Assembly: GCA_944389135.1 (NCBI GenBank)
Contig: CALXLG010000008.1
Coordinates: 1 to 43,267, forward strand
Reading direction: 5' to 3'
From: an uncultured Alphaproteobacteria bacterium
GTDB lineage: Bacteria > Pseudomonadota > Alphaproteobacteria > Rs-D84
DNA length: 43,267 bases
Positions 457 through 3,993 of this stretch are shown here, in pieces. Numbering within the stretch: the stretch's first letter is position 1; each line of letters begins with the position of its first letter. The notes below the pieces were generated by a model that worked only from the letters and a program-made list of their open reading frames with translations, ran no database searches and was not told the origin of the DNA. Both the position numbers and the translations under genes were made by a program.

Positions 457-1488
457 ATGATAAATAAACTTAAAATTTTCTTATTCTTATCAACTTTAGT
501 GCTTTTCGTACAAGTCGCTTTGGCAGCAACTTCACCTGCTAATTATATGAGTGCAAATTCTTATAATAATCTATACCCATATATGAATAATACTATGCGG
601 ACAAGCCTTAACCCAGGTACAACCCCAAGTCAATCAAATGCACAAATAAACGTATTAACCAGAACTAAACAAGCAACAAATACAACAACCAGAAAAGTTG
701 TACCAAGAACCGCAACAACACAAACCACCGCCAGAAGCGCAACTACAGGCACATCCGTACGAAGTGCTAGTACGCCAACCACAGCAAACACTAATTCCAA
801 TGCACGCGTAGCAACAAATACCACAATGGCGGCCAGAAACAATACAACAAGCAATTCAACACGACGCGTAGTCGCTCGTTCTGGAACAACAACAAATAAT
901 GCAATGCAGGCAGCCATCAGAACTTCTCGTGGAGATGTATCAACCTATGCAAACCAAAATGCTTCTGGCGTAATTACTTATGATACCAGCACTCAATCTA
1001 TACCCTCTTCGCGTTGCATGGCAGATTATATTGAGTGTATGAACGGTTATTGTGAACGTGAAAATGCGGCATATAACAGATGCTATTGTAGCACAAAACT
1101 GGCACAAATAGATTCCACATATCAACCAGAAATAGACAGTTTAATAAAAGAGATAATTGTTGCACAAAGTACTAACAAGTGGACAGATGAAGAAATGAAC
1201 GAATACTGGATGGAGACAATTGGTAAATATACTGGTGATAATTCTTGGGTTAATCTTGAAAATGCTTTAAATATAGATTGGTCCAGTACAGAAAGCCGCG
1301 TTCGCGGACAGCAAGCCTTTGCAACAGGACATTCATATTGCGTTCAACACTTAAAAGGATGTGCATATATGGCAAATAATCTTCGTGATGCGTATCGCTC
1401 TGAAATTGCGCGTGATTGTTCTACATATGAAACCTCATTAAAGAAAATAAAAAGTGCCGCAGAAAGTATATTGGAGGCTTATAAATGA
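457..1488 (+). CDS. Secreted protein, Thr/Asn/Arg-rich linker plus Cys-rich domain (unknown family)
   Basis: 343 aa. Residues 1-24 form a signal peptide (hydrophobic core, then ALAA). Residues ~45-165 are low complexity, dominated by Thr, Asn, Ala, Arg and Ser, and likely disordered. From ~185 to the end there is a compact domain with eight Cys; its start shows the spacing C-x6-C-x4-C-x9-C-x-C, then two more Cys (SYC...GC) and a last one (RDC). An even number of Cys in an exported protein suggests disulfides. The C-terminus is helical and charged. The stop codon overlaps the next start (ATGA), so it is translationally coupled to the arginase-family gene. I do not recognise the family. A role at the surface or in the periplasm is inference from the signal peptide alone. 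Confidence 0.85.
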   Translation: MINKLKIFLFLSTLVLFVQVALAATSPANYMSANSYNNLYPYMNNTMRTSLNPGTTPSQSNAQINVLTRTKQATNTTTRKVVPRTATTQTTARSATTGTSVRSASTPTTANTNSNARVATNTTMAARNNTTSNSTRRVVARSGTTTNNAMQAAIRTSRGDVSTYANQNASGVITYDTSTQSIPSSRCMADYIECMNGYCERENAAYNRCYCSTKLAQIDSTYQPEIDSLIKEIIVAQSTNKWTDEEMNEYWMETIGKYTGDNSWVNLENALNIDWSSTESRVRGQQAFATGHSYCVQHLKGCAYMANNLRDAYRSEIARDCSTYETSLKKIKSAAESILEAYK

Positions 1489-2321
1489 AAAAACTATTTG
1501 GCATAGAGTATGGTCGCGGTGCAACCGCTAAAATTATTGATGGTGGACCCGCATTGGCACCAGCAAAAGTAAAAAGTCTTTTTCCTGACTATGATTGGAC
1601 AATTATCACGCCAGAGCCTTTCAACTTAGAAGAATGTCAAAAGGACAGATTCGGTGAAAACTATAAAATACAAAAGAAAATTTATGAAAACACACCAACA
1701 GAAAAACATATTTTAATTGGTGGTGACCATTCTGTAAATTTTGGGCATTTTGCGGCTATTGCCGATAGAATCCCAAATGATGAGTTATGCTTAATATATA
1801 TTGACGCACACTTAGATATACATACACCAGAAAGCTCTAAAGCAGAAGCATCTGGCGCACCACACGGTACAAATGTTCGCGCACTTATTGGCGAAGGTGA
1901 TGAACGCTGGTTATCATTACAAAAAAAATGCCCTGCCCTCAAACCTGAAAATGTTTTTTATTTGGCAACCCGTTCATATGAAAATTCTGAGATAAATTTT
2001 GTACGCAACAATAATATTTTTTGCCGTGAATCAAAAGAACTTCAAACACCAGAGGCATGGGAAAAAGCCGTTAAAGAAATTATGGCAAAAATTGCCAACA
2101 AACCTTTTATGATTTCTTTTGACTTTGATGCGCTGGATCCATCTATATTTGAAGATGTTTTGGTTCCAGAACCAAACGGTATATCATTAGATGCCGCAAA
2201 ATATTTCTTAGAATCATTCAAAAATGCAATTGGCATAGAATTTGTGGAATATGCACCAAAACAATCAGAAAAATCAGAAGAACTGGTAAAAGAATTAGTC
2301 GGTCAGGCATTAAAATATTAA
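1485..2321 (+). CDS. Arginase/agmatinase-family (ureohydrolase) enzyme
   Basis: 278 aa. The family uses a Mn2+ pair to hydrolyse guanidino or related groups (arginine, agmatine, formimidoylglutamate). The metal ligands are visible: GGDHS (His82), DAHLDIH (Asp107, His109, Asp111) and SFDFDALDP (Asp213, Asp215). A further conserved His is in APHGTN (His127). The length is a little short of arginases and agmatinases (about 300). The N-terminal GxExG-type opening and the ending VEYAP fit arginases better than agmatinases, but the substrate cannot be set from sequence. The start overlaps the stop of the secreted Cys-rich orphan by 4 bp (ATGA), an odd pairing of a cytosolic enzyme with an exported protein. 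No signal peptide. The end overlaps by 4 bp the convergent small lipoprotein gene. Confidence 0.9.
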   Translation: MKKLFGIEYGRGATAKIIDGGPALAPAKVKSLFPDYDWTIITPEPFNLEECQKDRFGENYKIQKKIYENTPTEKHILIGGDHSVNFGHFAAIADRIPNDELCLIYIDAHLDIHTPESSKAEASGAPHGTNVRALIGEGDERWLSLQKKCPALKPENVFYLATRSYENSEINFVRNNNIFCRESKELQTPEAWEKAVKEIMAKIANKPFMISFDFDALDPSIFEDVLVPEPNGISLDAAKYFLESFKNAIGIEFVEYAPKQSEKSEELVKELVGQALKY

Positions 2322-2509
2322 TGCCTGCTTTCACAAATCTGATTGTGCCGATAAATATTTCTTGCCAAATCATCACTGATGACATCCCAATCTGATGCGC
2401 GTCCATAAATTGGCATACATGGCAAGCAATTATTATTAATCTGCGATTGTGTATTTTTCGCGCAAGATGCGACGAATATCGTGCAAGCTAGTACTAAAAA
2501 CTTTTTCAT
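2318..2509 (-). CDS. Small lipoprotein, outer-membrane spanin (Rz1-like) candidate
   Basis: 63 aa. The signal peptide ends in a lipobox VASC with Cys16, giving a mature lipoprotein of about 48 residues with two further Cys (CLPC) and a charged helical tail (DDLARNIYRHNQICE). A strong ribosome site (AGGAAAGA) lies ahead of the ATG. That start sits inside the upstream small membrane-protein gene, in the +1 frame, with 74 bp of overlap. A short lipoprotein nested at the end of a gene for a one-TM coiled-coil protein is the hallmark of phage Rz/Rz1 spanin pairs, which join the inner and outer membranes at the end of lysis. It could instead be an unrelated small lipoprotein. Confidence 0.65.
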   Translation of the reverse strand: MKKFLVLACTIFVASCAKNTQSQINNNCLPCMPIYGRASDWDVISDDLARNIYRHNQICESRH

Positions 2510-2675
2510 CTATCTCTTTCCTTTGATTTTCATAAATAATTTGATTATTTTTTAAATTCTCTATAGTTTCTTGCGCTAATTCTTCATGGCATTTTGCATT
2601 GCCACGAAACTCACCAGCTAAAAAGCATAAAAATAAAGTCAGACCAATCAGTCCGACAAGATAAAGCTTATACAT
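2436..2675 (-). CDS. Small one-TM protein, inner-membrane spanin (Rz-like) candidate
   Basis: 79 aa. Residues ~3-22 form a single N-terminal membrane segment (short Lys then Leu/Val/Phe-rich). The rest is periplasmic, rich in Glu, Lys, Asn and Gln with predicted coiled-coil character (HEELAQETIENL, then YENQRKEIDEKV), ending in a basic helix. There is one Cys after the membrane segment. A weak ribosome site (AAAGG) precedes the ATG. The gene lies 49 bp downstream of rho and could share its transcript past the rho terminator. Length and topology match inner-membrane spanins, and the partner lipoprotein is embedded in its 3' end. No holin or endolysin gene is adjacent. Confidence 0.65.
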   Translation of the reverse strand: MYKLYLVGLIGLTLFLCFLAGEFRGNAKCHEELAQETIENLKNNQIIYENQRKEIDEKVFSTSLHDIRRILREKYTIAD

Positions 2676-2699: not shown

Positions 2700-2719
2700 A
2701 GCCCTCTTTTTTGAGGGCT
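2700..2719 (-). terminator. Terminator after rho
   Basis: Stem AGCCCTC/GAGGGCT with a 6-base A loop as read on the minus strand, followed by the T-rich tract ATTTAATTTT. It starts five bases after the rho stop and precedes the small spanin-like genes. Confidence 0.7.
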
Positions 2720-2724
2720 TTTAA

Positions 2725-3993
2725 CTATTGATTCATAGAAGAGAAGAAGTCTTCATTAGTTTTTGTTAAACGCAACTTATCCAACAAGAACTCCATCGCT
2801 TCCAATGTTCCCATCGGATTTATAATTCTGCGTAAAACGTACATCTTTGACAACACATCTTTGCCCACCAACAAGTCTTCTTTACGTGTGCCAGATTTCG
2901 TTATATCAATTGCAGGGTATACACGTTTATCAGATAATTTTCTATCTAAGATAATTTCACTGTTGCCAGTACCCTTAAATTCTTCGAAAATAACTTCGTC
3001 CATTTTAGATCCTGTATCAACCAATGCTGTTGCAATAATAGTCAACGAACCACCACCTTCTATATTACGTGCCGCTCCAAAGAAACGTTTTGGTCTTTGC
3101 AACGCATATGCATCAACACCACCTGTTAAAACCTTGCCACTGCTTGGAACAACAGTATTATAAGCACGCCCCAAACGAGTAATAGAATCTAACAAGATAA
3201 CAACGTCTTGTCCTGCTTCCACCAAACGTTTTGCTTTTTCAATAACCATTTCCGCAACTTGAATATGGCGCGCAGCCGGTTCATCAAACGTTGAAGAAAT
3301 AACTTCACCCTTAACACTGCGTTGCATATCAGTAACTTCTTCTGGACGTTCATCAATCAACAAAACTATCAATTTTACATCTGGGTAATTCGTCGCAATA
3401 GAATGAGCTATATTTTGTAGCATAACTGTCTTACCAGTACGTGGTGGCGCAACAATCAATGAGCGCTGCCCCTTACCTGTCGGAGAAATCAAGTCAATAA
3501 CACGTGCAGATAAACTGCGCCCTTTATCTTTATCATCAATGACTTCCATTTTTAACATCTCATCAGGATAAAGAGGAGTCATATCATCAAAAGATACCCT
3601 ATGACGCAACTTTTCCGGATTGCCACCATTAACACGTTCTATCGTTTCCAATGCAAAATAACGTTCAGATTCATTTTGTGGGGCTTGAATTTGACCTTCA
3701 ACATAATCACCTGTTTTTAAGCCGTATTTCTTAATTAACGCTGGTGAAACATACAAATCATCAGGTCCCGCCAGATAATTACTTTCTGGTGCACGCAAAA
3801 AACCAAAACCGTCTTGCATACGTTCCAAAACCCCGTCACCAATTAAAACAACTTTTTTATCCGCGGCAAAAACACGCATAACCGCAAAACGTAATTGTTG
3901 TACATTTAACTGTGAAGGGTTTTCAATCCCCATATCTTCAGCCATTTTCAGCAATTGCTGTGGCGACTTTGCCTTTAGTTCATTAATATGCAT
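2725..3993 (-). CDS. rho: Transcription termination factor Rho
   Basis: 422 aa, close to the usual ~419. Rho is a hexameric RNA-dependent ATPase/helicase that ends transcription. In order: an N-terminal helical Rho_N domain (1-45); a cold-shock-type RNA-binding domain with the RNP motif GFGFLR (62-67) and a second stretch GDYVEG; then the RecA-like ATPase with Walker A APPRTGKT (182-189), Walker B VVILLDS (264-270) and the secondary-channel region [15 protein letters not shown]. The start is set by AAAAAGGA ahead of ATG and by family alignment. A consensus promoter drives a ~57-nt leader. It is divergent from ssb. Confidence 0.98.

Follow-up and report, generated by a model that had tools for sequence, protein, structure and literature searches.

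An overlapping spanin gene pair beside rho in gut Alphaproteobacteria and its possible link to a podovirus-derived gene cluster

Spanins are familiar from phages and from a few secretion cassettes. What, then, does an overlapping pair of spanin-like genes do in a bacterial chromosome with no phage around it? This question is raised by the window analyzed here, i.e., the whole 43,267-nucleotide stretch of contig CALXLG010000008.1 from an uncultured alphaproteobacterium of the order Rs-D84, whose assembled genome has a size of 0.99 Mb and is 98.5% complete. An earlier note, made from the sequence alone, had placed two open reading frames with a 74-bp out-of-frame overlap on the minus strand, between rho and an arginase-family gene, and our analysis found both frames at these positions. 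The features of the locus (positions in the window) are as follows.

1485..2321, plus strand: arginase-family gene (Pfam PF00491, 4.8e-34)
2318..2509, minus strand: o-spanin gene, encoding an outer-membrane lipoprotein of 63 aa (phrog_1275 match)
2436..2509, minus strand: overlap of the i-spanin and o-spanin genes, 74 bp, in different frames
2462..2473, minus strand: o-spanin lipobox VASC, residues 13-16
2436..2675, minus strand: i-spanin gene, encoding 79 aa with an N-terminal membrane segment and then a helical periplasmic part that ends in DIRRILREKYTIAD
2604..2663, minus strand: predicted membrane segment of the i-spanin (hydropathy; high-confidence helix in AlphaFold2)
2701..2718, no strand assigned: hairpin GCCCTC-6-GAGGGC between rho and the spanin pair (from the sequence; a similar hairpin occurs in many relatives), probably the rho terminator
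2725..3993, minus strand: rho, the conserved upstream neighbour of the pair

Copies of the capsid or portal gene of the phage-derived cluster described below are absent from the window, and neither a holin nor an endolysin gene adjoined the pair in any rho locus read. A by-eye comparison of relatives gave no shared regulatory motif upstream of the pair, only hairpins resembling a rho terminator. The gene at positions 457-1488, which encodes a secreted protein that is rich in Thr/Asn and has a Cys-rich end, is a constant neighbour of the spanin pair and has paralogues at several sites in the genome.

In a PHROG profile search, both proteins matched profiles of Rz-like spanins, i.e., phrog_1026 for the 79-aa protein (2.3e-6, residues 4-76) and phrog_1275 for the 63-aa protein (1.7e-10, residues 1-60), which upholds the spanin-like reading of the earlier note. 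The same two profiles were matched by 19 of the 28 i-spanin orthologues and by all 30 o-spanin orthologues scanned. In coliphage Fostie, a holin gene and an endolysin gene are followed by a phrog_1026 gene that overlaps a phrog_1275 gene, and the two families are partners in phages. Profile-profile comparison with spanins of Rs-D84 gave an E value of 1e-7 for the i-spanin and of 3e-4, at low probability, for the o-spanin; a tblastn search with the i-spanin against named phages returned zero matches, and profile searches were required.

The predicted structures and sequence motifs of the two proteins also confirmed a protein with one transmembrane segment, which is single and N-terminal, and a lipoprotein with VASC at residues 13-16. 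AlphaFold2 predicted one long helix and a short one for the 79-aa protein (mean pLDDT of 79) and was confident for the 63-aa lipoprotein in its C-terminal helical half only; this half of the o-spanin is unusually conserved (DWDVISDDLARNIYRHN). Cysteines C16, C31 and C59 of the o-spanin are invariant, and the periplasmic cysteines of the pair resemble those that are present in most described spanins (PMC6139136). The pair hence shows the traits of the Rz/Rz1 type, i.e., an i-spanin membrane segment with a helical part, an o-spanin lipobox, a matching pair of families and overlapped genes. It may still disrupt the outer membrane.

The genus Enterousia has been placed in the order Rs-D84 (PMC12306168), and the pair was found between rho and an arginase or rep343 gene in approx. 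80 species of Candidatus Enterousia and its relatives, which are gut Alphaproteobacteria of this order. A scan of GTDB genomes with the o-spanin alignment yielded 144 loci encoding relatives; all of the 80 loci kept were from Candidatus Enterousia-type alphaproteobacterial assemblies or from unnamed gut metagenome assemblies. Two scans of viral contigs detected no relatives of the o-spanin. Overall, the o-spanin gene was present in 159 of 201 Rs-D84 genomes, effectively with one copy per genome (one genome had two identical contigs), and the rho-locus o-spanin was confined to one family (0 of 18 genomes of other Rs-D84 families). The neighbours were constant in the approx. 80 loci: rho flanked the pair on one side, a gene for arginase and/or of the rep343 family flanked it on the other, and inserts occurred at times. 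In most relatives rho was located on the same side of the pair, and it was often separated from it by an insert.

The overlap was exactly 74 bp long in 105 of the 106 pairs read from relatives, a set that includes some genomes twice and from which 82 distinct pairs were used for rates; at four further loci, the i-spanin was not found by a motif filter. A lipobox-like tetrapeptide ending in Cys was present in all pairs (VASC in 69), and the hydropathy of the i-spanin membrane segment was kept in all pairs save one outlier (one read was 5'-truncated). Loss of either element in relatives, which the earlier note had named as a refuting sign, was thus not seen. Outside the overlap, dN/dS was approx. 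0.11 for the o-spanin and 0.39 for the i-spanin. Synonymous difference was 0.25-0.28 inside the overlap as compared to 0.60-0.66 outside, for both frames, and this halving indicates that two coding frames are under constraint. As the 74-bp overlap recurs almost without exception and synonymous change is halved in both frames, the overlap architecture is far beyond chance. Across relatives, distances between i-spanins correlated with those between o-spanins (r = 0.50), with those of rho (0.43) and with those of rep343 (0.46); the correlations of the o-spanin with rho and rep343 were weaker (0.31 and 0.24, respectively).

These sequence data indicate that the pair is derived from a phage and has since been kept by the Enterousia family as a vertically inherited chromosomal gene. 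The earlier note had asked for the conservation of both frames and of the locus, and we found the same neighbours in approx. 80 loci as well as purifying selection on both frames; together with the spanin profiles and the constant overlap, these findings support its option of a domesticated lysis part. We consider it nearly certain that the pair is a genuine spanin and that it is domesticated.

A search of the genome for holin, endolysin or gene-transfer-agent genes, as also proposed earlier, found a cluster with a capsid, an endolysin and a holin-like gene on another contig of the same genome (contig C3); it was reached via a scan of the small membrane proteins of the genome. The parts of this C3 cluster are as follows.

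Contig C3 68260-80930, minus strand: capsid, terminase, portal, tail and endolysin cluster (PHROG matches), unlinked to the spanin pair
Minus strand, first in order from 80.9 kb downward: endolysin (phrog_938, 6.9e-8)
Holin position: holin-like gene, 73 aa, with two membrane segments
Between the holin-like gene and the capsid gene: scaffold-like protein
Major capsid protein, MCP (phrog_3437, 5.7e-72)
Pair of tail proteins of the podovirus type (phrog_394 and phrog_376)
Start of a tail fibre (phrog_1640)
Large terminase, N-terminal half (phrog_38, 1.1e-42)
Past dnaB and two further host genes: large terminase, C-terminal half (phrog_38, 1.1e-37)
Likewise past these three host genes: portal (phrog_332, 4.9e-67)

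The 73-aa protein had zero family matches and was assigned as holin-like by its position and its two membrane segments. The cluster is interrupted by dnaB and the two other host genes, which lie on the opposite strand, and its large terminase (TerL) is split over two genes; the N-terminal half was a gene of its own, of approx. 200 aa, in all families in which it was readable. The gene set matches that of Pelagibacter phage Hodr, the closest named phage (46% identity of the capsid). No spanin-like open reading frame was detected in 20 cluster regions of this type.

The C3 capsid gene was found in 178 of 201 Rs-D84 genomes (121 of the 126 genomes of good quality) and in 22 of 23 genera, nearly always once per genome. 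The gene order of the cluster was largely kept in all six Rs-D84 families, with some rearrangement in two of them (f6 and f4). Within the genus, dN/dS was 0.04 for the capsid and did not exceed 0.24 for any gene for which it was computable, and pN/pS of the portal gene equalled that of dnaB. The distances of capsid, terminase and tail correlated with those of the unlinked rho gene (r = 0.88, 0.91 and 0.96, respectively; reached by 0 of 2000 permutations), co-diversification with rho being judged here by a distance test rather than by full trees. These patterns indicate that the C3 cluster is vertically inherited and not infectious. Many IMG/VR viral contigs of approx. 10 kb (L281-L360) carry a capsid that is 81-92% identical, and often begin exactly there; these contigs are probably chromosomal pieces that were filed as viruses.

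Criteria for gene transfer agents (GTAs) have been published (PMC9662315), and for the three that can be assessed from sequence we found (i) a caudovirus-derived particle, i.e., PHROG matches for head, portal, tail and terminase; (ii) endogenisation, i.e., interruption by dnaB and two host genes as well as unlinked spanins, which we presume to be included; and (iii) vertical inheritance, i.e., presence in 178 of 201 genomes and correlations of 0.88-0.96 with rho distances. By these features the C3 cluster looks like an undescribed element of the GTA type, which may produce particles. A search of the open-access literature yielded no account of a GTA from Rs-D84.

Release from a Gram-negative host requires that the outer membrane be opened, and the C3 cluster would thus want a spanin. 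Since an endolysin and a holin-like gene are encoded in the cluster and a spanin could not be recognised there, the cluster can be tied to the rho-locus pair, and the best single explanation for the pair, to which we assign a probability of about 0.58, is that it serves the release of the podovirus-type C3 particle. In the proposed mechanism, the 79-aa i-spanin would reside in the inner membrane, with the 63-aa o-spanin lipid-anchored in the outer one; the two would join across the periplasm and, after the wall has been cut, both membranes would be fused. The C3 cluster would supply the endolysin and the holin-like gene, the rho-locus pair would supply the spanin step, and C3-cluster particles would be released from the cell by means of this pair.

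Absences of the cluster and the pair bear on this coupling. Capsid, portal and spanin pair were all missing from three near-complete genomes of the Enterousia family (G202, G021 and G024). Two other capsid-negative genomes (G059 and G152) have the pair and also the portal, which indicates that the capsid is missing from them owing to a gap in the assembly. Absence of the cluster was associated with absence of the pair among good-quality genomes (P = 0.003; Fisher's exact test with group sizes partly inferred and kinship ignored) and, under the same limits on group sizes and kinship, when G024 (6% contamination) was added (P = 0.0002). G021 is also without a rho match, and its missing pair may hence be an assembly gap. 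We regard the signal of co-loss as modest, because counts were partly inferred, shared ancestry was ignored and G021 is without rho. Against coupling count at least four genomes that keep a C3-type cluster without the pair (G012, G142, G195 and G199), the occurrence of the cluster across the order as compared to that of the rho-locus pair in one family, and the lack of linkage between the two loci; in one more genome (G204), the capsid is present and both the pair and a portal match are absent. The gene-transfer-agent variant proposed in the earlier note is independently supported by the order-wide cluster with an endolysin, a holin-like gene and no recognised spanin; the coupling of this cluster to the pair is a part that we infer.

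The main rival to release of the C3 particle is a stand-alone role in lysis or secretion, which we consider unlikely; the domesticated pair would act in programmed lysis or in protein release by lysis akin to type 10 secretion, together with a holin and an endolysin encoded elsewhere, and would be unconnected to the C3 cluster. Type 10 secretion system (T10SS) cassettes do employ Rz/Rz1 spanins outside phages (PMC10847048), other Rs-D84 families hold stand-alone holin/i-spanin/o-spanin/GH24 cassettes with no structural genes nearby, and muralytic P5-type genes occur outside prophages genus-wide. On the other hand, neither a holin nor an endolysin lies beside the pair in the loci read, no cargo gene is recognisable, and a GH24 lysozyme is missing from the genome and patchy in the genus; the latter was rejected as an obligate partner on these grounds.

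The stand-alone cassettes, each with a holin, an overlapping i-/o-spanin pair and a GH24 endolysin, were observed in four genomes (G037, G041, G045 and G051) of another Rs-D84 family (f4), at L384 1858-2759, L385 1610-2504, L383 3576-4672 and L047 789-1818. They lack structural genes, adjoin polA/tgt or sit downstream of a lon-like gene, and their o-spanins belong to phrog_1275 and are located away from phage genes. A further genome (G040), likewise with a phrog_1275 spanin, has an overlapping i-/o-spanin pair (L046 2483-2801) that adjoins a Smr-domain gene as well as the mraZ/rsmH/ftsI cluster and has no phage genes in its vicinity. In the genome that carries the window, contig C3 also encodes, at 103056-107045, membrane and secreted proteins that occur genus-wide, have P5-type lysozyme domains and are possibly part of an export system; the membrane protein was rejected as a holin/endolysin partner, as it resembles an export-system component more. 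A phage holin (phrog_199) that emerged from the scan of small membrane proteins and lies on contig C20 was likewise rejected, as this contig is probably a contaminant by its GC content (0.55, as compared to 0.34-0.44 in the other contigs).

It is less probable still that the pair has become a non-lytic tether between inner and outer membrane, or a dominant-negative factor that disturbs phage lysis. Its location behind the rho terminator suggests that expression is constitutive and low and not tightly controlled, and the unusual conservation of the C-terminal half of the o-spanin would also fit such a role; lipobox, membrane segment and cysteines are all retained, however, and a new partner lacks evidence. 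We consider it very improbable that resident prophages share the pair as a helper. A Mu/P2-like prophage with a holin-like gene and a P5-type endolysin is present on contig C22 (357-17791), but it has its own overlapping spanin pair behind the endolysin, and its capsid occurs sporadically (in two genomes of the genus only), whereas the rho-locus pair is near-universal; it was therefore rejected as the client of the pair. A decayed copy of the lysis cassette of this prophage lies at 35997-36872 of contig C3, with a truncated holin, a broken i-spanin frame and an endolysin of 95% identity. Finally, even though no phage genes adjoin the pair, a scar left by a prophage and a look-alike arising by chance, readings considered in the earlier note, can be dismissed as exceedingly improbable in view of the conserved neighbour order, the fixed 74-bp overlap, purifying selection on both frames and the matches to partner families.

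A spanin pair that is separate from a holin and an endolysin and that vertical descent has fixed throughout a bacterial family is unusual. The pair also led to an order-wide podovirus-type capsid cluster under purifying selection in hosts with genomes of approx. 1 Mb. Beyond release of the C3 particle by the pair, we see an even chance that Rs-D84 keeps a podovirus-derived GTA that has a two-gene terminase and is released by a spanin pair that was relocated from the phage cluster to a fixed site next to rho. If the C3 cluster is a GTA, it would represent a new GTA lineage in the animal gut, in hosts otherwise shedding genes, and the part that gene transfer plays in genome reduction would become testable; as a GTA candidate, the cluster deserves a study of its own.

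Among known systems, RcGTA and BaGTA of the Alphaproteobacteria likewise consist of caudovirus-derived genes that have been endogenised, are inherited vertically and are distributed over several loci. In contrast to these agents, capsid and tail in Rs-D84 are of the podovirus type and an HK97-type capsid (PF05065) is absent; no such capsid was detected over the cut-off in the genomes of 45 relatives, with a positive Caulobacter control, which rules out an RcGTA-type agent (Rhodogtaviriformidae). The GTA-like element of Faecalibacterium, FpGTA, is podovirus-like (PMC12946183) and also resides in a gut bacterium, and no other report of a podovirus-like GTA beyond Faecalibacterium was found in the open-access literature. 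Faecalibacterium, however, is Gram-positive and spanins are unneeded there, and the likeness to FpGTA noted here is one of description.

Type 10 secretion (Serratia ChiWXYZ and Yersinia entomophaga YenLC) shares with the rho locus a phage-derived i-/o-spanin pair that a bacterium retains and that is not part of a prophage. T10SS cassettes, however, are defined by holin, endolysin and spanin together outside a prophage, whereas at the rho locus we found spanins only, which stand alone with no adjacent holin or endolysin and no known cargo. The Fostie-type spanins (PHROG 1026 for the i-spanin and 1275 for the o-spanin) are alike in both proteins, in overlap architecture, size, lipobox and cysteines. 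Compared to these phage proteins, the rho-locus pair has distinct C-terminal motifs, and it is located outside a lysis cassette and vertically inherited between rho and arginase/rep343.
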